Notes under the pieces: generated by a model
Database searches by the model: none
What the model saw: the letters and a program-made list of their open reading frames with translations, nothing else
What the model was told of the DNA's origin: nothing
Part shown: piece by piece, positions 22,338-33,784 of the stretch
Layout: each line of letters starts with the position of its first letter
Numbering within the stretch: position 1 is the first letter of the stretch
Assembly (NCBI RefSeq): GCF_001428125.1
Contig: NZ_LMSM01000011.1
Coordinates: 62,001 to 126,000, forward strand
Direction: 5' to 3'
DNA: 64,000 bases
DNA from: Nocardioides sp. Soil774
GTDB taxonomy: Bacteria; Actinomycetota; Actinomycetes; Propionibacteriales; Nocardioidaceae
Position numbers and translations under genes: made by a program

Positions 22338-22385
22338 TCGGCGACCCTGCCCTCGCGGTCGGCAGCGACTGTCGGTGGCGACGAC

Positions 22386-22391
22386 TATAAT
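22386..22391 (+). promoter_or_regulatory. leaderless promoter with consensus -10 TATAAT for the HNH gene
   Basis: TATAAT, 7 nt, then ATG 22399. It is the only full TATAAT -10 I see in the window. It lies downstream of a possible earlier ATG at 22375, which therefore cannot be the start on this transcript. Confidence 0.75.
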
Positions 22392-22398
22392 CGATCAC

Positions 22399-23784
22399 AT
22401 GATCGAGATGCTGGCAGGACCTCCAGAGGCTGAGGCAGACGCCCTCAGCCCGGCCGGCCTGCTCGCCTCGATCCGGGCCTCGCGCGAGATCGAGAACAAG
22501 GAGGCCGCCCGACAGCTCGACCTCGCCGCCCGTTGGGCGGACCTGCACCCGCCCGAGTCGATCCACTCCGCGGCCGCGTTCACCGTGCCCGGTTCCGAGC
22601 ACGAGGAGCCGATCGCAGGCGACGGCTGCCCGCTGGTCGCGGAGTTCTGCATCGCCGAGGTCGGCACCGTGCTGGGCATCTCGACGGTGGCGGCGAAGAA
22701 GCTCATCGGCCACGCCCTCGAGCTGCGTCACCGGCTGCCGCGGTTGTGGGCGCAGGTGCAGTCGGGGCGGGTGCCGGCCTGGCGGGCCCGATTGGTCGCG
22801 GAAACCACCATCCACTCCACTCCCGCCCTGACCTCCGACGCAGCCCGCTTCGTCGACGCCCAGGTTGCCGCCGTCGCCGGGAGGATCGGGACCGCGCAGC
22901 TCGACCGGCTCGTCGCGGAGACCATCAAGCGGTTCGACCTCGCGGAGGCTGATCCCTCCGCGGATCCCGAGGAGGGCTACCTCCACGTCGACCCCCGCCA
23001 CGTCACGATCCACGACGAGGACGTGCACTTCGCCGGCACCGTCCGGATCGAGGCCGAGCTCGGCCTCGCCGAGGCCCTCGACCTCGAGAACGCCGTCGCG
23101 CACGGTGCCGCGACCCAGAAGGCCTTGGGCTCGACAGAGTCCCTCGACGCCCGCCGGGCCAGTGCGCTCGGCGATCTCGCCCGGACCCAGACCGCGCTCG
23201 ACCTGTTCTCCCAGGGACCTACGGGCGCCACGGCACAGGACGGCCTTCCCGCGGCTCGCGAGGTCGTGCTCCATGCCCACCTCGACGCGAGCGTCCGGGA
23301 CGGGCAGACCGTCTTCGGTCCCACCGGTCGTCTCGAGGAGCGCCAGCGGCTCCTGCTCCTCGACCAGCTGCAGTCGTGGTGCGCCGACTCCCGCACCCGG
23401 ATCACGATCAAGCCGGTCATCGACCTCAACTCCGACCTGTCCACCTCGGCGTACGCCGTGCCCGACAGCATCCGGGAGTTCGTGATTCTCCGAGACGGCA
23501 CGTGCGTGTTCCCCTGGTGCGGCCGCAGCGCGCGGGCCTGCGACGTCGACCACGTCGTCGAGTTCGACCATGAAGCAGAGATCGAAGGCCGAGCACAGCC
23601 CGGCCCGACCACGACGTCCAACCTCGCCGCCCTCTGTCGCTTCCACCACCGCCTCAAGACCCACTCCGCCTGGCGCTACGACATGGTCGAGCCCGGGGTC
23701 TTCGAGTGGACCTCCCCCCACGGGCACCGCTACCGCCGCGACCGCACCGGCACCACCGCGCTCGATCCACCCGGCCGACCATGA
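22399..23784 (+). CDS. DUF222 / HNH endonuclease domain protein (13E12-repeat type)
   Basis: 461 residues. An N-terminal DUF222 region (about 15-330) is followed by an HNH nuclease module: CVFPWC, then CDVDHVVEFDH, then NLAALCRFHHRLKTH, which supplies the two Cys pairs and the His residues of a zinc-finger HNH fold. Such proteins are multi-copy in many actinobacteria (the 13E12 repeat family of mycobacteria) and are suspected mobile or repeat-associated elements; real activity is unproven. I see no flanking direct repeats or transposase here. The start is set by the TATAAT promoter. Confidence 0.88.
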   Translation: MIEMLAGPPEAEADALSPAGLLASIRASREIENKEAARQLDLAARWADLHPPESIHSAAAFTVPGSEHEEPIAGDGCPLVAEFCIAEVGTVLGISTVAAKKLIGHALELRHRLPRLWAQVQSGRVPAWRARLVAETTIHSTPALTSDAARFVDAQVAAVAGRIGTAQLDRLVAETIKRFDLAEADPSADPEEGYLHVDPRHVTIHDEDVHFAGTVRIEAELGLAEALDLENAVAHGAATQKALGSTESLDARRASALGDLARTQTALDLFSQGPTGATAQDGLPAAREVVLHAHLDASVRDGQTVFGPTGRLEERQRLLLLDQLQSWCADSRTRITIKPVIDLNSDLSTSAYAVPDSIREFVILRDGTCVFPWCGRSARACDVDHVVEFDHEAEIEGRAQPGPTTTSNLAALCRFHHRLKTHSAWRYDMVEPGVFEWTSPHGHRYRRDRTGTTALDPPGRP

Positions 23785-25476: not shown

Positions 25477-25483
25477 CGTGACG

Positions 25484-26212
25484 GTGAGCGACATTCCCGC
25501 AGCCAGCGCCCCCCGTTCCGTCCTGGTCACCGGCGGCAACCGCGGCATCGGCCGCGCCATCGCCGAGGCCTTCCTGGCCCAGGGCGACAAGGTCGCGGTC
25601 ACCACGCGCAACGGCGGTGCGCCCGAGGGCGCACTCGACGTGCGCTGCGACATCACCGACGCCGAGGCGGTGGAGCGCGCGTTCCAGGAGGTCGAGGCGG
25701 CCCACGGACCGGTCGAGGTGCTGGTCGCCAACGCCGGCATCACCAAGGACACCCTGCTGCTCCGCATGAGCGAGGACGACTGGTCCTCGGTCATCGACAC
25801 CAACCTCACCGGCACGTTCCGGCTCGCCAAGCGCGCCTCGAAGGGGATGCTGCGTCTGCGCCGCGGCCGCATCATCCTCATCTCCTCGGTCGTCGGCATG
25901 CTCGGCTCGGCCGGCCAGGTCAACTACGCGGCGTCCAAGGCGGGCCTCGTCGGCATCGCGCGCTCGCTCGCCCGCGAGCTCGGCAGCCGTTCGATCACCA
26001 CCAACGTCGTGGCCCCCGGCTTCGTCGAGACCGACATGACCGACGTGCTCACCGACGACCAGAAGTCCGCGATCAGGACGCAGGTGCCGCTGGGGCGCTA
26101 CGCCTCCCCGGCCGAGGTCGCCTCGGCCGTCACCTGGCTCGCGTCCGACGGCGCCGCCTACGTCACAGGGGCCGTCATCCCGGTCGACGGCGGCCTCGGC
26201 ATGGGCCACTGA
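25484..26212 (+). CDS. fabG: 3-oxoacyl-ACP reductase FabG (MabA-like)
   Basis: 242-residue classical SDR. Cofactor loop TGGNRGIGRAIAE, NAG motif VANAGITKD, catalytic Ser135, Tyr148 and Lys152 (LISSVVG, NYAASKAG) and C-terminal YVTGAVIPVDGG are all intact. Placed 29 nt upstream of an enoyl-ACP reductase gene, the order of the mycobacterial mabA-inhA operon, so it should reduce 3-oxoacyl-ACP in type II fatty-acid synthesis. Confidence 0.93.
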   Translation: MSDIPAASAPRSVLVTGGNRGIGRAIAEAFLAQGDKVAVTTRNGGAPEGALDVRCDITDAEAVERAFQEVEAAHGPVEVLVANAGITKDTLLLRMSEDDWSSVIDTNLTGTFRLAKRASKGMLRLRRGRIILISSVVGMLGSAGQVNYAASKAGLVGIARSLARELGSRSITTNVVAPGFVETDMTDVLTDDQKSAIRTQVPLGRYASPAEVASAVTWLASDGAAYVTGAVIPVDGGLGMGH

Positions 26213-26241: not shown

Positions 26242-27012
26242 ATGGGAATCCTCGACGGCAAGCGCATCCTCGTCGCCGGCGTCACGATGGACAGCTCGAT
26301 CGGCTTCGCCACCGCACGCGTCGCCCAGGAGCAGGGCGCGACGGTGCTGATCTCCAACTTCGGCCGCGCCCTCGGCATCACCAGGCGCATCGCCAAGCGG
26401 CTGCCGCAGGAGGCCCCGGTGCTCGAGCTCGACGTGACCGACGAGGACCACCTCGCCGGCCTCGCCGACCAGGTGCGCGAGCACGTCGACGGCCTGGACG
26501 GCGTCGTGCACTCCATCGCCTACGGCAACCCGGAGACGCTGCTCGGCGGCAAGTTCATGACCGGCCCGTGGGAGGACGTCGCCCAGGCCGTGCAGGTCTC
26601 GGCGTACTCCCTCAAGTCGCTCGCCGTGGCCACGCGTCCGCTCATGTCGCGCGGCGGGTCGATCGTCGGCCTGACCTTCGACGCGACCATCGCGTGGCCG
26701 GCGTACGACTGGATGGGCGTGGCGAAGGCGGCGCTGGAGAACACGAGCAGGTACGTCGCGCGCGACCTCGGTCCGGAGGGCATCCGCTGCAACCTGGTCT
26801 CGGCGGGCCCGCTCAAGACGCTCGCGGCGAAGGCCATCCCCGGGTTCGAGGACCTCGAGTCGGCGTGGAAGGACCGTGCGCCCCTCGGCTGGGACGAGAC
26901 CGACCACACGCCCACCGCCCAGGCCGTGTGCGCGCTGCTCAGCGACTTCTTCCCGGCCACGACCGGCGAGATCGTGCACGTCGACGGTGGCTTCCACGCG
27001 ATGGGCCTGTAG
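26242..27012 (+). CDS. fabI: enoyl-ACP reductase FabI/InhA type
   Basis: 256-residue divergent SDR with the enoyl-reductase hallmarks: GVTMDSSIGFATARVAQEQG at the cofactor site, VHSIAYGN around residue 91, and the catalytic pair Tyr155-x6-Lys162 (YDWMGVAK). It catalyses the last reduction of the elongation cycle and is the type of protein targeted by isoniazid or triclosan. The ATG has ribosome binding site GAAGGGA. Operon with fabG. Confidence 0.94.
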   Translation: MGILDGKRILVAGVTMDSSIGFATARVAQEQGATVLISNFGRALGITRRIAKRLPQEAPVLELDVTDEDHLAGLADQVREHVDGLDGVVHSIAYGNPETLLGGKFMTGPWEDVAQAVQVSAYSLKSLAVATRPLMSRGGSIVGLTFDATIAWPAYDWMGVAKAALENTSRYVARDLGPEGIRCNLVSAGPLKTLAAKAIPGFEDLESAWKDRAPLGWDETDHTPTAQAVCALLSDFFPATTGEIVHVDGGFHAMGL

Positions 27013-27043: not shown

Positions 27044-28747
27044 GTGACCTCACTCGTCGAGCTGCGCATCCTCGAAGGCCCCAACCTCTACTTCCCGCGT
27101 GCAGCGGTGAAGCTGACGTTGGACGTCTCGACGATCTCCGAGGCGAGCGACGAGGCGGTGCTGCGGTTCGCGCGCCGGATCGGTCTGCGGACGACGCGGC
27201 CGGGGGCGCCGGGCTCCGGCTTCCGGCAGCGCTTCGCCCTGCGCGCGGTCGAGCGGCTCGTGCGCGCGATCGCCAACGAGGCGGGCACCCGCCGACTCGC
27301 GGTGCGGGTGCGCCCGACCTCCGACCCGCAGGTCCTGGTCGTCGCCTTCCCGTGGCGCAACCGTGAGCGCGCCCGCGCGCTGGGCGAGGCCGTGGCGCAC
27401 GCGCTCGACGCGCTGCCCACCCCCGCCGTCGAGCAGGCCGTGAGCGCCGCGGCCGCCGAGGTCGCTGCCGCGCCCCGGGGCGCGCGGCCGACGACCCTCG
27501 TCCCGAAGATCCCCGTCGTCGCGGTGACCGGCACCAACGGCAAGACGACCACCAGCCGGATGATCGCGCACATCGCCCGCACGAGCGGACTGGTCGTCGG
27601 CTGGTCCAACACCGACGGCATCTACCGCGACGGCGTGCTGGTGGAGGCGGGGGACTACTCCGGACCCTCCGGCGCAGCCCGCGCGATGGGTCTGGACGGC
27701 GTCCAGCTCGCCGTGACCGAGACCGCCCGCGGCGGCATCCTGCTCAAGGGCATCGGCATCACCCGCAACGACGTCTCCGTGGTGACCAACGTGACCGCCG
27801 ACCACCTCGGGCTCCAGGGCATCGACACCGTCGACCAGCTCGCCGAGGTGAAGTCGGTCGTGCCGCGGATCACCCGCAAGGACGGCTGGGCCGTGCTCAA
27901 CGGCGACGACCCCCGCGTGCTCGCCATGCAGGCGGTCATCTCCGCCCAGCCGTGGATCTTCAGCCGCGACCCCGACTCACCCGCCGTCCGCGAGGTGCTC
28001 GGGCACGGCGGCGGACGCGCCACGACCGTCATCGACGGCTGGATCACCGTCCTGGCACCGGGGTCCGACCCCGACCCGCTGGTCGAGCTCGCCGACGTCC
28101 CGATGACCCTCGCCGGGCTGTCGCGCTTCAACATCGAGAACGCCCTGGCCGCGGCGTCCGCCGCCCTCGCCATCGGCCTGCCCCGCGAGGCCGTGGTCGA
28201 CGGGCTCACGTCGTTCCGCCCCGACGCCGAGCACAACCCGGGCCGGATGAACTTCTTCTCGATGCCGTCCCAGGACGGCGACAGCGTCTCGGTCGTCATG
28301 GACCTCGCCCACAACGAGGCCGGCCTCGAGGCGCTGCTCGAGATCATGGATGGCGTACGCCGCCCCGGCGCGCGCCTGCTGCTCGGCCTCGGCGCCGTCG
28401 GCGACCGCACCGACGAGCTGATCGACGCCCTCGGCGAGATCGGCGCCAAGGGCAGCGACGTGGTCGCGATCGGTCACAAGGAGTGGTACCTCCGCGGTCG
28501 CACCATGGACGAGATCGACGTGCTGCTGCGCGCCGGGGCGGCACGCGTCGGCGTCACCGACATCGACACCTACGAGACAGAGGTCGCGTGCCTCGCCGCG
28601 GTGGTGGAGCGCGCCCGTCCCGGCGACGTCGTCGGACTGATGTGCCACGCCGAGCGGCAAGAGGCCTACGACTGGATCGCCGCCCACGGTGGCGTGCCCG
28701 ACTCGCCCGAGGTGCTCGCGCAGAAGGTGCGGGCCGCCCGGGGGTGA
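27044..28747 (+). CDS. stand-alone CphA-like Mur ligase without ATP-grasp domain
   Basis: 567 residues. Residues 1-140 resemble the small N-terminal domain of cyanophycin synthetase (ELRILEGPNLYFPRAAVKL compares with the start of CphA). A Mur-ligase module follows with P-loop VTGTNGKTTTSRMIAH at about 160-175, nearly identical to the CphA encoded at 30017-32794 (same GTNGKTTTSRMIAH string), and with VTNVTADHLGLQGIDTV, NIENALAAASAALA and LLLGLGAVGDRTDELI. The ATP-grasp domain that CphA has between these parts is absent. It should therefore catalyse only one ATP-dependent ligation, presumably onto a peptide or amino acid carboxylate or amine. Partner and product are unknown; proximity to cphA/cphB suggests a related polymer. 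Confidence 0.82.
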   Translation: MTSLVELRILEGPNLYFPRAAVKLTLDVSTISEASDEAVLRFARRIGLRTTRPGAPGSGFRQRFALRAVERLVRAIANEAGTRRLAVRVRPTSDPQVLVVAFPWRNRERARALGEAVAHALDALPTPAVEQAVSAAAAEVAAAPRGARPTTLVPKIPVVAVTGTNGKTTTSRMIAHIARTSGLVVGWSNTDGIYRDGVLVEAGDYSGPSGAARAMGLDGVQLAVTETARGGILLKGIGITRNDVSVVTNVTADHLGLQGIDTVDQLAEVKSVVPRITRKDGWAVLNGDDPRVLAMQAVISAQPWIFSRDPDSPAVREVLGHGGGRATTVIDGWITVLAPGSDPDPLVELADVPMTLAGLSRFNIENALAAASAALAIGLPREAVVDGLTSFRPDAEHNPGRMNFFSMPSQDGDSVSVVMDLAHNEAGLEALLEIMDGVRRPGARLLLGLGAVGDRTDELIDALGEIGAKGSDVVAIGHKEWYLRGRTMDEIDVLLRAGAARVGVTDIDTYETEVACLAAVVERARPGDVVGLMCHAERQEAYDWIAAHGGVPDSPEVLAQKVRAARG

Positions 28748-28770
28748 GGACGGACGGTCGCTCCTGCCCC

Positions 28771-28776
28771 TAGGGT
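28771..28776 (+). promoter_or_regulatory. leaderless promoter -10 (TAGGGT) for the membrane protein gene at 28783
   Basis: TAGGGT, 6 nt, then ATG 28783. Confidence 0.65.
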
Positions 28777-28782
28777 CCGACC

Positions 28783-29640
28783 ATGACTCACGGGGGCGAG
28801 GTCCACAGCCGATCCATCGAGCACCCGTGGCTGCTGTCGTTGCTGGCCGCGCTCGTCGCGGCGCTGCTGGCGGCCTTCGTCCTCCCGGTCGAGGGCGAGA
28901 GCCTGGGCTACGCCTCTGGCAGCCACTTCGGCACGCTGCTGCTGCCGTGGCTCGCCGGCGCCCTGGCGATCCGGCACCGGTCGTGGCCCTCGTGGCTCGC
29001 GGTCTGTGGTCTCGTCGTCGTGTTCATGCTGGTGCTGCTCCTCGTGGCCGGCGTCAGCCGGGCCGTGGTCGACGCGCGCGAGCGGGACGTCTCGGCACCC
29101 GGCGCCGCACCGAACGGCTCGCCACGGACGTCGCCGGGTGAGTCGCAGGCCACCACCGACCAGGCCCTCTCCGTCGAGACCCCGCGTCGCGTGGGCGAGT
29201 GGCGCCGGCTCGACGGCGCGGAGCAGCAACGCGTACGCCGGCAGGCGCTCGCCTCCCTGGAGGTCTATCCCGACGACTGGGTGGTCGGCGAGCCCGCCGT
29301 CGCGTCGTACTCGCACCCCACCGGCCAGGCCGTCCTCGTCGCGATCGCCACAGGAGGAGGACTGGCCGAGGAGTTCGCGGCCGACGAGCGACAGGGCGCC
29401 GTCAACTTCGTCGGGGGTGCCCTCCCGGAGCGCAACCCGAAGAGCGTCGACCCGGGTCCGCTCGGCGGCGGGGCGGCCTGCGTCGACGACGTCGACGTCC
29501 TGGACGGCGGTCTGATGTGCGGCTGGGTGGGTGACGGGACCGCCGGCCAGCTTCTCCTGCAGGTGCCGGGGATGACCATCGAGGAGGCCCTGCCGGTCCT
29601 CCACCTCTTCCACGAGGAGGCGCTCGCCGACGTCGGCTGA
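28783..29640 (+). CDS. membrane protein with extracytoplasmic domain, unknown function
   Basis: 285 residues. Three hydrophobic segments (about 16-36, 48-60 and 70-90: LLSLLAALVAALLAAFVLP, LLLPWLAGALAI, WLAVCGLVVVFMLVLLLVAG), then a Ser/Pro/Ala linker and a folded region (140-285) that contains two cysteines (ACVDDVDVLDGGLMCGW) likely to form a disulfide outside the cell. I recognise no known domain. It sits between the stand-alone Mur ligase and the convergent cyanophycin operon, with its own promoter. Confidence 0.65.
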   Translation: MTHGGEVHSRSIEHPWLLSLLAALVAALLAAFVLPVEGESLGYASGSHFGTLLLPWLAGALAIRHRSWPSWLAVCGLVVVFMLVLLLVAGVSRAVVDARERDVSAPGAAPNGSPRTSPGESQATTDQALSVETPRRVGEWRRLDGAEQQRVRRQALASLEVYPDDWVVGEPAVASYSHPTGQAVLVAIATGGGLAEEFAADERQGAVNFVGGALPERNPKSVDPGPLGGGAACVDDVDVLDGGLMCGWVGDGTAGQLLLQVPGMTIEEALPVLHLFHEEALADVG

Positions 29641-29654
29641 GACCTCGACCCGGG

Positions 29655-30020
29655 TCAGACGTCGCCCGGGTCGACCTGCTCGCCGGGCGCTCCGATGTCG
29701 AGGTCTCCCTCGACGATCATCGCCGAGAGCCCGGCCGCCGAGTGCGTCTCGTGCGACTCGCCCGGCTCCCACACGGCGGCCTGACCGGGGTAGATCACCT
29801 GCGCGACGCCGTCGGCGCCGCTGACCTCGGCCTCGCCGTCGAGGACGACCAGCAGCTGGCGTCCCGACGCCGGATGGCGTCCGATCGACCCCCCGGGAGC
29901 GAGGCTCACCGCGACGAGGTGCGCGTCGGCGCTGATGCCGAACGCGCCGACCGAGAAGTGCCGGCTGCCGTGGGCCTCGATGCGGCGGCGGGGCAGGGCG
30001 CCCAGGTCGAGGATCCTCAC
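29655..30020 (-). CDS. cupin-domain protein coupled to cyanophycin synthetase
   Basis: 121-residue single-domain cupin. The first motif is APGGSIGRHPASGRQLLVVLDG and the second IYPGQAAVWEPGESHETHS, giving candidate metal ligands His and Glu. The GTG start at 30020 overlaps the CphA stop (GTGA), so it is translated from the cph mRNA. It may sense or modify an amino acid or bind a metal; the cupin family is too broad for more. Last gene of the leftward operon, 14 nt from the convergent membrane-protein gene. Confidence 0.85.
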   Translation of the reverse strand: MRILDLGALPRRRIEAHGSRHFSVGAFGISADAHLVAVSLAPGGSIGRHPASGRQLLVVLDGEAEVSGADGVAQVIYPGQAAVWEPGESHETHSAAGLSAMIVEGDLDIGAPGEQVDPGDV

Positions 30021-32794
30021 CCGGCCTCCGTGGGGGTCGGCGTGTAGTCGGGGTCGGCCGACGGCGCGTCCGGGTTGGCCACCGACCCTGCCTGGGCCGT
30101 GTCCGACCAGTTCTCCAGCTCGGCCATCACCTCGGCGTGCTTGTCGACGCACACGACCACGAGGTCGCCGCGGTTGGCGCGGCTCATCGCGTGGCGTACG
30201 GCCTCGATCTCCTCCACGACGAGCTCGGCCTGCTTGCAGCGCGCACCCTCGTCCATGGCGGTGCGCACGCCGTCGAGCACCAGGGAGGCGGTATCGCCGC
30301 GCTGGCGACCGCGCAGCGCGACGTCCTCGCGCACGATCACGACGTCGAAGTGCTGGGCGGCGATGTGGCCGAGCTCGCGCATGTCCTCGTCGCGACGGTC
30401 GCCGGCGGTCGCGATGATGCCGATCCGCGAGGGACGTGCGAGGTCGTGCGAGGACGCCAGCGAGTCGCCGACCCGGTCCACGAAGTCGCCGAGCATCTTC
30501 ATGCCGGGCGCGTTGTGGCAGTAGTCGACGATCACGTTGACGCCGTTGACGTCGACCTCGTTGAGGCGGCCGGGGGAGAGGTAGTAGTTGGTCGAGAAGG
30601 TGCGCAGGCCCTGCCGGATGTCGTGCAGGGGAGCACCGGCCGCGAAGGCGGCTGCGGCTGCGGCGAGCGCGTTCTGCACGTTCATCCGCGCCCGGCCGTT
30701 GAAGGTCGCCGGCAGCAGGTGGGTCCACGCCAGCTGCATCTCGCGGCGGCCGTGCTGGACGACGATCATCTCGCCGCGCTCGGTGGGGTTGATCACGATC
30801 GCCTTGCCGCCACGACGGCAGTGCGCGTCGATCATGTCGCGCACCTCGCTGCCCGGCTCCTCCATCGAGAACCACACGACCTGGCCCGAGCACTTGCGGC
30901 GCATCTCGCGGACCAGCGGGTCGTCGGCGTTGAGCACCGCGTGGCCGTCGCGCGGCACCGCCTCGACGATCACGGCCTTGACGTCCGCGAGCTGCTCGAC
31001 GGTGTCGATGCCGCGCAGGCCGAGGTGGTCGGGCTGCACGTTGAGCACCACCGCGACGTCGTTGCGCTCGTAGCCCAGGCCCTCGCGCAGGATGCCGCCG
31101 CGGGCGACCTCGAAGACGGCGAAGTCGACGCGCGGGTTCTGCAGCACCATGCGCGCCGAGCGCGGGCCCGAGGCGTCGGCACGGATGACCAGCCGCTCGT
31201 CGATGACGACGCCGTCGGTGGACGTCATGCCCACCTTGCGGCCCAGGCCCTTGAAGATGTGGGCGATCATCCGGCTGGTCGTGGTCTTGCCGTTGGTGCC
31301 GGTCACCGCCACGATCGGGATGCGCGAGGTCGCGCCCGGCGGGAACAGCATGTCGACGACCGGCTTGGCGATGAACTGCGGCTCGCCGATGGTCGGGTGG
31401 GTGTGCATCCGGAAGCCGGGCGCGGCGTTGACCTCGCAGATCGCGCCGCCTGCCTCGCGGACCGGCTCGGTGATGTCGGGGCAGATGAAGTCGATGCCCG
31501 CGATGTCGAGGCCGACCATGCGGGCGGCCTCCTCGGCGATCTCGACGTTCTCCGGGTGCGCCTCGAAGGTGCGGTCGATGGAGATGCCGCCGGTGGACAT
31601 GTTGCCGGTCAGCGCGAGCTTGACCATCTCGCCCTCGGCCGGCACGGAGTCGAGGGTGTGGCCCTGGTCGGCGAGCACCTCGACGGCCGCCTCGTCGACC
31701 TTGATGCGGGTGAGCACCTTCTCGTGCCCGACGCCGCGGCGCGGGTCGGCGTTCGTGAGGTCGACCAGCTGCTCGACCGTCGACGTGCCGTCGCCGGTGA
31801 CCGAGGCGGGCACGCGCTCGGCGATGGCGACCATCCGCCCGTCGATGATCAGGCAGCGGTAGTCCTTGCCGGTCACGAACGACTCGACGATGACGTTGCC
31901 GCGGCGCGACTGGCCCTCCGCGACGGGGAAGGCGGCGCGTACGTCGGACTCGTCCTGCAGGTCGAGGCAGACGCCGCGGCCGTGGTTGCCGTCGAGCGGC
32001 TTGAGGACCACGGGATAGCCGATGCGCCGCGCGGCGGCGACGGCCTGGTCCTCGGTGCGCACCGACTCCTGCTTGGGCACCGGGAGGCCGGCGGCGCCGA
32101 GCAGCTTGGTGGTGAGGTCCTTGTCGGAGGCGATGTCGACCGCGATCGAGGAGGTCTCCGACGTCATGGTCGCGCGGATGCGCTTGGCGTGGACGCCCTG
32201 CCCGAGCTGGACGAGGGAGTACTGGTTGAGCCGGATCCACGGGATGTCGCGGGAGACGGCCTCGTCGACGATGGCCTGGGTGGAGGGGCCGAATGCGGTG
32301 CGCTCGGCGCGACGGATGAAGTCGTCGCGCTCGGTCTCCCAGTCGAACTCGGGGTCACCCTCGACGAGGTGGTTGACGAGCCGCACCGCGAGACGGCCCG
32401 CGGTGAGGCCGACGTTCTCGTCGATGTAGCCGTAGATGATGTTGTAGTGGCCGGGCTGGCCCTTGACCTGACGGGTCTTGCCGCGCCGGATGTCGTGCCC
32501 GACGAGCTGCTGGAGCGCGAGCGCGACGTGCTCGGCCACGTGCCCGAGCCAGGTCCCCTCCTTGAGGCGCTCGACGAAGCCGCCACGACGCCCGCGCGAG
32601 CACGAGTGCTCCCGCAGGCCCGGCAGCATCGAGACGAGGTCGTCGGAGAAGCCCGGGAGGGTGTTGGTGGGGAACTGCTCCAGCGAGCCCAGGTCGACCA
32701 CGAGGTGGATCGACTTGTCGTAGGACCAGACGTTGGCACCGCGGTAGACGCGGGTCTCGACGATCTGCAGGTCCGGCGTGGGCCGTTCGCTCAT
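30017..32794 (-). CDS. cphA: cyanophycin synthetase CphA
   Basis: 925 residues, normal for CphA. The N-terminal domain (1-160) carries LREHSCSRGRRGGFVERL and GTWLGHVAEHVALALQQL, the latter an H-x3-EH metal-site-like motif linked to primer processing in some CphAs. An ATP-grasp domain follows (about 210-480, with VVLKPLDGNHGRGVCLDL and AICEVNAAPGFRMHTHP), then a Mur-ligase domain with P-loop GTNGKTTTSRM near residue 497. CphA builds multi-L-arginyl-poly-L-aspartate from Asp and Arg with ATP, without ribosomes; the product stores nitrogen. ATG 32794 gives the family start (LQIVETRVYRGANVWSYD); a longer frame upstream lies antisense within cphB and is rejected. It starts on the last base of the cphB stop. 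Confidence 0.94.
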   Translation of the reverse strand: MSERPTPDLQIVETRVYRGANVWSYDKSIHLVVDLGSLEQFPTNTLPGFSDDLVSMLPGLREHSCSRGRRGGFVERLKEGTWLGHVAEHVALALQQLVGHDIRRGKTRQVKGQPGHYNIIYGYIDENVGLTAGRLAVRLVNHLVEGDPEFDWETERDDFIRRAERTAFGPSTQAIVDEAVSRDIPWIRLNQYSLVQLGQGVHAKRIRATMTSETSSIAVDIASDKDLTTKLLGAAGLPVPKQESVRTEDQAVAAARRIGYPVVLKPLDGNHGRGVCLDLQDESDVRAAFPVAEGQSRRGNVIVESFVTGKDYRCLIIDGRMVAIAERVPASVTGDGTSTVEQLVDLTNADPRRGVGHEKVLTRIKVDEAAVEVLADQGHTLDSVPAEGEMVKLALTGNMSTGGISIDRTFEAHPENVEIAEEAARMVGLDIAGIDFICPDITEPVREAGGAICEVNAAPGFRMHTHPTIGEPQFIAKPVVDMLFPPGATSRIPIVAVTGTNGKTTTSRMIAHIFKGLGRKVGMTSTDGVVIDERLVIRADASGPRSARMVLQNPRVDFAVFEVARGGILREGLGYERNDVAVVLNVQPDHLGLRGIDTVEQLADVKAVIVEAVPRDGHAVLNADDPLVREMRRKCSGQVVWFSMEEPGSEVRDMIDAHCRRGGKAIVINPTERGEMIVVQHGRREMQLAWTHLLPATFNGRARMNVQNALAAAAAAFAAGAPLHDIRQGLRTFSTNYYLSPGRLNEVDVNGVNVIVDYCHNAPGMKMLGDFVDRVGDSLASSHDLARPSRIGIIATAGDRRDEDMRELGHIAAQHFDVVIVREDVALRGRQRGDTASLVLDGVRTAMDEGARCKQAELVVEEIEAVRHAMSRANRGDLVVVCVDKHAEVMAELENWSDTAQAGSVANPDAPSADPDYTPTPTEAG

Positions 32795-33771
32795 CAGTGG
32801 TCTCCCTGGGTCGGGTCGGGGGTCTGGGGTGAGCGCGAGCGCCGCAGCTTGAGCCGGCGCCTGATCGCCTCGGGCGTCGCGTCGGCGGCAGCGATGTCGC
32901 GCGCGAGCTGGCGCAGGTCGCGGCTGGCCTCGGCCAGCTCGTCGGCGTCCTCCGGGTCGACGACCGGCTCCTGGGGCACGAGCGCACGCGTCGTGAGGTT
33001 GAAGACCGAGCCCTGCGGCAGCACGTGGAAGACCACGCCGCTCGCCAGCAGGGGCGAGGAGCGGGTGGCCTCGTAGGCGTTGGACACCATCCGCGCGCCG
33101 TCGAAGACGGTGACCGCGCCCTTGCCGAGCACGCGCATCACCAGGTCGCCGTCGACGTCCTCGACGAGGCCGCAGGTGTCCTCGTCGACGCCGATCCCCA
33201 GCAGCTGCGGGCTCTGCGCGACGATCATGAGCAGCCGGCCGTAGCGGTTGCGCTGGTCGAAGTGCTGGTCGATCACGGTGGCGTCGACCAGGCCGAGCCC
33301 GGCCGCGACCTGGGTCATGCGCTGCTTGGGGGTGGCGCCGCCGACGCCGAAGGCGACCATGTGCGACGACTGGATGCTGGCGCCGGCCGACGTGCCGGCC
33401 ACGACCGCGCCGCGGGCGTGGGCGCGCAGGATCGCGTCGCCGACGGGTGTCCCGCACACGATGGAGGAGAGCTTGAGCTGGTTGCCGCCGGTCATGAAGA
33501 CGCCGGTCGCGCCGTCGATGGCCTTCACCAGCGCCGCGTCGTGCGACTGCTCGCGCGACTCCGGACGTACGGCGTCGACGCGAGCGGCGCCGAACTTGGT
33601 GAAGAGCGCGTCATAGACGTCGACCACCTCACGACCGAGCGAGGAGGCCGTCGGGATGACCGCGATCCGGGCGTCCTTGCCGCCACTGAGCGCGACGAAG
33701 TGCTTGAGGATGGTCGGCTTGCGCACCTTGTCCTCGGCACCACCGATGATCATGAGTGGTCCGTTGGGCAT
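32794..33771 (-). CDS. cphB: cyanophycinase-like peptidase (S51 family)
   Basis: 325 residues. The start MPNGPLMIIGGAEDK, the VFMTGGNQLKL block, the nucleophile elbow GTSAGAS with Ser128, and DQHFDQRNRYGRL with His170 fit cyanophycinase. The Ser-His spacing of 42 agrees with what I recall for CphB. There is no Glu anywhere between Ser128 and His170, where the triad acid is expected; only Asp163 and Asp168 are acidic. The C-terminus has a basic tail (RRRLKLRRSRS). CphB releases beta-Asp-Arg dipeptides; here activity may be altered. First gene of the operon, with its own -10. Confidence 0.85.
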   Translation of the reverse strand: MPNGPLMIIGGAEDKVRKPTILKHFVALSGGKDARIAVIPTASSLGREVVDVYDALFTKFGAARVDAVRPESREQSHDAALVKAIDGATGVFMTGGNQLKLSSIVCGTPVGDAILRAHARGAVVAGTSAGASIQSSHMVAFGVGGATPKQRMTQVAAGLGLVDATVIDQHFDQRNRYGRLLMIVAQSPQLLGIGVDEDTCGLVEDVDGDLVMRVLGKGAVTVFDGARMVSNAYEATRSSPLLASGVVFHVLPQGSVFNLTTRALVPQEPVVDPEDADELAEASRDLRQLARDIAAADATPEAIRRRLKLRRSRSPQTPDPTQGDH

Positions 33772-33778
33772 GACAGGC

Positions 33779-33784
33779 AGGCTA
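33779..33784 (-). promoter_or_regulatory. leaderless promoter -10 (TAGCCT, minus strand) of the cphB-cphA-cupin operon
   Basis: TAGCCT read leftward, 7 nt, then ATG 33771. Divergent from the phosphatase gene at 33805 with only 33 nt between start codons. Confidence 0.6.

Follow-up and report, generated by a model that had tools for sequence, protein, structure and literature searches.

Cyanophycin, which stores nitrogen, is a model biopolymer, and its published scheme, in the excerpts cited here, needs a synthetase, a cyanophycinase and a dipeptidase only. In cyanophycin synthetase 1 (CphA1), the HxxEH motif of the N domain makes primers and D585A/H586A serves as an M-domain knock-out (PMC9262961, in part), and M-domain roles are assigned to K499, T500, T522 and E558 (PMC9427784, in part). 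The published residue roles, as excerpted, further include R323, N394 and R458, which bind Asp, and R309, which handles the chain. The survey of Sharon and Schmeing (2023; PMC10206079) covers cphA1, cyanophycinase and two dipeptidases, and the word 'ligase' is absent from its main text. According to the excerpted part of a 2023 wastewater study (PMC10687191), Tetrasphaera has two cphA copies 'in series', the shorter of them expressed at a lower level, and the cluster includes serB as well as cphB, which lies upstream; neighbouring cphA copies are credited there to Fuser and Steinbuchel (2007). Here we describe a stand-alone CphA-like ligase (LIG; 567 amino acids) encoded near cphA in a 64,000-nucleotide (nt) stretch of Nocardioides sp. 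Soil774 (NZ_LMSM01000011.1, positions 62,001–126,000; hereafter the window, to which all coordinates refer). The association of LIG with cphA is strong, LIG is a CphA1-derived ligase minus the polymerase domain, and a change to the polymer is the best, if tentative, of several readings of its role.

LIG is found together with cphA

LIG (27044..28747, + strand) converges with a cphB-cphA-cupin gene set on the − strand and thus faces cphA. The cphA gene (30017..32794, − strand) encodes 925 residues with N, G and M domains that score 1182.7 bits against TIGR02068 (cut-off 850) and pass as full-length CphA1, and cphB (32794..33771, − strand; 325 residues) scores 235.8 bits against TIGR02069 (cut-off 126.6) and passes as cyanophycinase. 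cphB and cphA overlap by 1 nt (TGATG), and the cphA stop overlaps the GTG start of the cupin gene (29655..30020, − strand; 121 residues) by 4 nt (GTGA), which bears out the end-to-end overlap described in an earlier reading of the letters (the sequence-only reading). That reading also pointed to the P-loop string of CphA in a second protein on the opposite strand, and 19 identical residues, VAVTGTNGKTTTSRMIAHI, are indeed common to LIG (residues 159–177; 27518..27574, + strand) and the CphA M domain (residues 495–513; 31256..31312, − strand). The distance of about 1.3 kb that it gave between cupin and ligase is corrected to 907 nt between the two stops, with one + strand gene (28783–29640) in between.

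Within the window's own family (group f1 of the phylum, taken as Actinomycetota; 198 genomes), LIG is present in 67 genomes, all 67 of which have cphA, and 130 genomes have neither gene. The remaining genome, G119, has cphA alone, on a contig that stops at the 3´ tail of this gene, and is thus no clear exception. The phylum sample (396 genomes) contains 24 genomes with LIG; cphA was detected in 22 of them, and the other two (G335 and G430), at first sight cases of LIG without cphA, have contigs that begin inside cphA, which makes 24 of 24. In the class sample (394 genomes), 36 genomes have a match, and cphA is found in 29 of the 29 that have LIG. Two small classes, which are subsets of the phylum sample, have LIG in 17 of 27 and 3 of 3 genomes. 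LIG is thereby seen in twelve families (f1, f6, f15, f20, f50, f54, f60, f81, f92, f93, f107 and f109). These samples overlap one another and their counts are not additive; three candidates were scored per genome in the phylum and class samples, which makes absences there slightly less sure. Both genes lie on the same contig in 65 of 67 own-family genomes and in 19 of 24 genomes of the phylum sample, where the other five are assemblies of 140–420 contigs. In G061 the two genes occupy two contigs, each at a contig end.

The arrangement of the pair is also conserved. In the fetched loci, chosen mostly for both genes on one contig, LIG and cphA face each other in 74 of the 74 that have both, with a median gap of 797 nt and 39 pairs within 1 kb; this count leaves out L129, L131, L132 and L134, whose 'cphA' match is LIG itself, together with L130 and L133. 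For the set of LIG sequences, matches that span fewer than 400 residues or share less than 44% identity, and rows with internal stops, were left out. cphB is directly upstream of cphA in 72 of the 74, and the remaining two (L094 and L126) are cut by contig ends. The LIG and CphA distance matrices from 70 loci correlate with a Mantel r of 0.96, which none of 999 permutations reached. Among neighbours shared by 24 loci of seven groups, LIG and cphA recur in seven groups, cphB in six and an ABC-type ATPase cluster in three (6 loci); the other shared clusters are read as frames overlapping the LIG, cphA, cphB or ATPase genes.

The upstream side of LIG raises the alternative that it is unrelated to cyanophycin, being a member of a fabG-fabI operon or a stray Mur ligase. 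fabI (26242..27012, + strand) lies directly upstream on the same strand, 31 nt from LIG, with fabG (25478..26212, + strand) 5´ of both, and in 57 of 78 loci no more than 1.5 kb separates LIG from an upstream fabI. However, the fetched loci of f15, f20, f50, f54 and f60 have cphA, and not fabI, beside LIG; LIG was not found in the 130 own-family genomes that lack cphA, and its plasmid relatives sit inside the cphA operon (below). Membership of a fatty-acid operon was rejected because cphA still accompanies LIG in the fetched loci without fabI. We regard fabG and fabI as context and not as core parts, and a LIG foreign to cyanophycin is extremely improbable.

A search of a plasmid collection with LIG yields a 601-residue 'Mur ligase family protein' of Shinella, whose alignment to the LIG profile spans 536 columns (E 2e-68). 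It matches four plasmid records: Shinella and two Ruegeria, all three Alphaproteobacteria by title, and a record marked unverified whose filing under Roseateles would make it betaproteobacterial, with a protein 94% identical to that of Shinella. In all four, cyanophycinase, cphA and the ligase run in one direction, with the ligase directly downstream of cphA. LIG thus stays with cphA under two gene orders, facing and in one direction, which indicates that the association is not tied to one layout. The outcome that the sequence-only reading had set against itself was a ligase found as often away from cphA as near it; the opposite was found, as LIG occurs, in the samples searched, only in genomes with cphA. 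LIG is very probably dedicated to cyanophycin metabolism as an accessory ligase.

Domain composition, fold and ancestry of LIG

LIG consists of an N-like region, a Mur-ligase middle domain and a C-terminal domain, and it matches Mur_ligase_M (PF08245) and Mur_ligase_C (PF02875). An ATP-grasp family is matched neither by the window LIG nor by any of the 32 aligned LIG sequences at E 0.01. LIG scores 355.9 bits against TIGR02068 (cut-off 850), with its best stretch at profile positions 478–849 of 862, and so fails as full-length CphA1. The one active site of CphA2 is the ATP-grasp (G) domain, which joins beta-Asp-Arg; LIG also fails as an enzyme of this type, since the G domain is absent. Among the matches listed (25 of 27) to curated NCBIfam models of MurC-F, MurT, FolC, PgsB and pMur, LIG reaches no cut-off, its best score being 91.3 bits where 373 are needed (a MurE model).

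An AlphaFold2 model built from 32 LIG sequences has a mean predicted local distance difference test score (pLDDT) of 91.8 and a predicted TM-score (pTM) of 0.88. Foldseek with this model ranks CphA1 first (7lgj; TM-score 0.79 over LIG, 886 alignment columns). VIA-align aligns CphA1 7wae to 522 of 567 LIG residues (root-mean-square deviation 3.0, Z 53.4, model range 2–549). Three further CphA1 chains reach Z 48–49, the four chains (7lg5, 7lgj, 7lgq and 7wae) together covering 522–526 of the 567 residues, and the remaining CphA1 chains give Z 30–37 over 364–524 residues. Mur ligases and FolC give Z of about 28–33, with 33 the top value for a Mur ligase. Of the 522 aligned residues, no more than 399 can come from beyond residue 150 of LIG, which leaves at least 123 within the first 150 (27044..27493, + strand). 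This region is therefore predicted to have the CphA1 N-domain fold, although PF18921 is unmatched in all 32 LIG. Its median net charge is +6 (range 1 to 24), compared with −4 (−11 to 5) for CphA residues 1–165. Judged by the model, LIG has the N and M domains of CphA1 in the CphA1 arrangement, minus G.

In a tree of 69 chosen rows, in which the MurE outgroup forms a very long branch, LIG and the proteobacterial plasmid ligases fall together in a single clade that excludes all CphA M domains (support 100/99). The view that LIG is a recent duplicate of the neighbouring cphA was rejected on this ground. Sequence and model together show that LIG is an old CphA1 paralogue without the G domain, so that it cannot lengthen the Asp backbone in the manner of CphA1.

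The retained N-next-to-M layout handles chain pieces in CphA1 (PMC9262961, in part), and LIG could accordingly make starter pieces or end caps, that is, short primers for CphA1 or closures of the chain end. Yet the HxxEH primer-making site is absent from 78 of 78 LIG, and the partner CphA carries its own C-x19-HxxEH motif, as described in the excerpted part of PMC9262961, in 70 of 70 loci (in the window from C65 to H89 of the N domain; 32528..32602, − strand). A separate primer maker does not look necessary, and we consider such a role quite unlikely.

The active site of LIG compared with that of CphA1

The alignment took in 75 of 78 LIG rows and, for CphA, 66 of 75 rows from partners of LIG and 71 of 74 from outside loci. 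The outside rows come from the best 80 of 581 cphA loci beyond the phylum, ranked with a profile led by cyanobacterial CphA1 (by title 54 cyanobacterial, 25 Bacteroidota and 1 Acidobacteria), 74 of which gave an open frame with both motifs. Small P-loop differences mark twelve of the left-out rows. The nine CphA rows left out are the divergent ones, and four of these (L114, L117, L118 and L120) were added back in a wider comparison.

The P-loop GTNGKT is present in 78 of 78 LIG (77 GTNGKTT and one GTNGKTS). The equivalents of E558, D585, H586, R731, N733, H748, N749, D776, R777 and R805 (Su numbering) are kept in 75 of 75 LIG rows; the MurE arginines that align with R777 and R805 bind a carboxylate. 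Co-occurrence with cphA would also be seen if LIG were a non-catalytic partner or chaperone of CphA1. A dead partner is expected to lose some catalytic residues, whereas those checked in the M domain are invariant, and we regard this explanation as very unlikely.

The surroundings of these residues differ. At position S542, all 75 aligned LIG rows carry Gly where CphA has Ser (66 of 66 partner and 71 of 71 outside rows). The same CphA rows invariably have Arg at 778, which most LIG rows replace by Thr, Gln or Ser. Most LIG rows also exchange D781 for Leu or Ile, and 93% have Leu in place of R566. The loop aligned with the DNPR of MurE, before YLRGR, is rewritten in LIG with one or two residues inserted. 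In the window it reads GHKEWYLRGR (residues 477–486; 28472..28501, + strand) against REDVALRGR in CphA, with one inserted residue, and is predicted to bind an amino acid; its Y482 is invariant in LIG rows. In the wider comparison, nine LIG-type rows are told apart from all 35 CphA-type rows by three features: position 542 is Gly, position 537 is aromatic, and one or two residues are inserted ahead of YLRGR. A residue other than Arg at 778 also separates them, with one exception (G932, a divergent f89 CphA).

These data bear on whether LIG is simply a second adder of Arg (or Lys), a free-standing M domain that finishes bare Asp or speeds the Arg step. The retained catalytic residues, including the invariant R777 and R805 equivalents, are in keeping with that function, and divergent CphA, too, is altered at some of the changed positions. 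Against it, position 542 and the loop before YLRGR differ between every LIG row and every CphA row in the comparison of nine with 35, and LIG forms one deep clade apart from all CphA M domains and is not a recent copy. We judge a second Arg adder unlikely. The sequence pattern hints instead at a working ligase with a donor, and probably an acceptor, unlike those of CphA1.

The partner CphA, cyanophycin breakdown and the cupin

In the window CphA, 16 published residues (R309, R323, N394, S396, R458, H267, K499, T500, T522, E558, D585, H586, C59, H79, E82 and H83; Su/Te numbering) are all identical after mapping, and a seventeenth, E215, is Asp. With the published site residues of the G, M and N domains identical, this CphA should make ordinary Asp-Arg. 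The sequence-only reading had proposed a modified or different polymer. Its view that the ligase belongs with cphA is supported. A different polymer does not follow from the data, and the 16 kept residues lead us to expect Asp-Arg from CphA.

The dipeptidases of cyanophycin breakdown are scarce in the own family. IaaA (PF01112) is found in 3 of 198 genomes and IadA (TIGR01975) exceeds its cut-off in none of the 198, with two weaker full-length matches in genomes without cphA. At the thresholds used, neither isoaspartyl dipeptidase family is found in 65 of the 67 genomes with cphA and LIG; up to nine candidates were scored per genome, which makes absence slightly less sure. By comparison, one or both dipeptidases are reported in all 35 Actinomycetota genomes with cphA1 (PMC10206079, in part). 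Dipeptides released by CphB would thus need another fate, and LIG could salvage beta-Asp-Arg onto chain ends, the job of CphA2 in cyanobacteria. However, most own-family genomes that have no cphA are likewise without the dipeptidases, and genomes with LIG are not special in this respect. Moreover, CphA2 uses a single active site (PMC10206079, in part), and salvage by LIG would call for unprecedented chemistry, with an M domain working on a backbone carboxylate. Salvage by LIG is therefore improbable.

The cupin protein passes Cupin_2 (PF07883; 35.1 bits, cut-off 27.2). It occurs in 29 of 198 own-family genomes, all of one genus, in which it is present in 29 of the 43 genomes with LIG, and it always adjoins cphA, the reverse of the outcome (a cupin found as often elsewhere) that the sequence-only reading had set against itself. 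H49, Q55 and H90 are invariant in the 29 rows. The usual cupin metal-ligand set has more His or Glu. We propose a sensing or small-molecule step at most. Being confined to one genus (29 of 198 genomes), the cupin was rejected as a core part.

Proposed role of LIG

We propose that LIG couples an amino acid other than Arg to the cyanophycin chain or its unit, and we put the probability of this reading at roughly 0.4. CphA1 would make ordinary Asp-Arg chains. LIG would phosphorylate a carboxylate that is still free, on the side chain of a backbone Asp or at the alpha position of a side-chain Arg, and would then couple the new amino acid to it, giving a capped or side-chain-modified cyanophycin. 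An extra amino acid added by the ligase was also the idea of the sequence-only reading; the altered surroundings of the active site do suggest another amino acid. A wider version is more tentative: LIG would be a second, non-arginine cyanophycin step outside Cyanobacteria, derived from CphA1, stripped of the polymerase domain and retargeted, for which a second cphA copy (copy 'b') may substitute in the family f83.

Several points weigh against this proposal. The chemistry is inferred. The reading of the pocket leans on MurE structures, in which the loops aligned with the changed loops of LIG hold the incoming amino acid. Divergent CphA rows of the family f89 have Asn728 and Leu781 as in LIG, and R778 is lost in a divergent CphA as well, so these changes alone mark no new donor; the probability given above was lowered because divergent CphA rows have some of the changed positions. 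Proteobacterial LIG keep R566 and an acid at 781. The pair E800/D801 varies within CphA1, being Q-E in Bacteroidota rows and T-G in the Acidobacteria row, which also has a Tyr like that of LIG, and the alignment of this loop in LIG is uncertain by one residue. With the Glu-Asp pair variable in CphA1, and Leu781 and Asn728 present in f89 CphA, the Arg-pocket argument was rejected as proof of a new donor. As to co-occurrence, the own-family genome G197 has LIG and cphA on two contigs, neither near a contig end, and hence truly far apart. In the class sample, 7 of the 36 matching genomes have cphA without LIG. Outside the phylum, no match to the LIG N domain occurs at the 80 cphA loci (the best 80 of 581; flanks up to 10 kb, often shorter), and nothing resembling LIG is matched in the 33 whole genomes of this set, where CphA and a few weak Mur-like proteins account for the matches. 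LIG is therefore not required for cyanophycin as such.

Weak matches in this outside set were read as other Mur ligases: a second Mur-like place in L197 (26% identity) and five extra matches (27–33% identity) in four of the 33 whole genomes.

The seven LIG-less genomes of the class sample comprise four of f4 and f89, each with one divergent cphA (40–44% identical), and three of f83, all of one genus and each with two cphA copies (G632, G652 and G666; L225–L230). Both f83 copies fall in the clade of LIG-partner CphA. Copy 'a' keeps Glu-Asp at E800/D801; in copy 'b' the first of the two is Ser and the second Arg, Leu or Ser. Within the partner clade, the altered-loop synthetase of a LIG-less lineage fits a need for a second ligase specificity, although the evidence, from a single genus with three genomes, is thin. 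Copy 'b' is accompanied by a divergent cphB of its own in G632 and G666.

If the wider version is true, the cyanophycin stored by bacteria of the window's phylum, and by some Alphaproteobacteria, has a different chemistry, and in f83 (3 of 3 genomes without LIG) the second cphA copy, with its Glu-Asp pair lost, would do the job of LIG. A ligase that accompanies cphA in twelve families and on proteobacterial plasmids implies an unexplained pathway step there. LIG could supply a natural enzyme for altering cyanophycin side chains. In addition, profile-based counts of 'cphA copies' can mix two different enzymes.

Other features of the window

The gene between LIG and the cupin gene (28783..29640, + strand; 285 residues) has no Pfam or NCBIfam match and is matched, in part, at one of 80 fetched loci (L062). 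Its protein appears by eye to have hydrophobic stretches near the N-terminal start, and its stop lies 14 nt from the cupin stop on the opposite strand. Between moaA and fabG, 22375–23784 encodes a protein that ends, by eye, in an HNH-like motif. No Rfam family was found in the window.

Comparison with known systems

Searches of an open-licence library turned up no account of LIG as an enzyme in its own right, although papers behind subscription could contain one. MurE, other Mur ligases and FolC share the middle and C-terminal fold with LIG. In contrast to them, the N-terminal domain of LIG is of the CphA type, and LIG falls below their NCBIfam cut-offs. CphA2 resembles LIG as a second CphA-type enzyme in which the N-domain motif is also absent (PMC9262961, in part). 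CphA2 differs in being cyanobacterial and in repolymerising beta-Asp-Arg with a single active site (PMC10206079, in part), whereas LIG has an intact M domain and no G domain.

Among plasmid proteins, a CphA-like protein of Legionella adelaidensis (P0005; L221:4326-6194; 622 residues) has N and M without G, as LIG does, and its gene adjoins cyanophycinase and isoaspartyl peptidase genes. Unlike LIG, it has retained HxxEH along with CphA-type residues, and in the tree it sits on a long branch among CphA1 rows, which probably reflects an independent loss of the G domain. Two Deinococcus plasmids (L220:4702-7218 and L219:5705-8204) also encode a CphA-like protein, matching in two stretches, whose G region is poorly matched by eye. 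The protein of L220 lacks the C-x19-HxxEH motif, and that of KNUC1210 (L219) is annotated as two pieces beside a full cphA.

CphA1 itself (TIGR02068; 7lg5, 7lgj, 7lgq and 7wae) has the same M-domain catalytic residues and fold as LIG; unlike it, LIG has no ATP-grasp domain and no HxxEH, altered M-site surroundings and a separate clade. The Tetrasphaera locus, as excerpted from PMC10687191, resembles the loci described here in its two neighbouring cphA-type genes, with cphB upstream and serB in the cluster. The shorter gene is treated in that excerpt as a second cphA copy, without analysis of its domains or specificity. By analogy with the loci described here, this 'shorter cphA copy' of Tetrasphaera is probably LIG.

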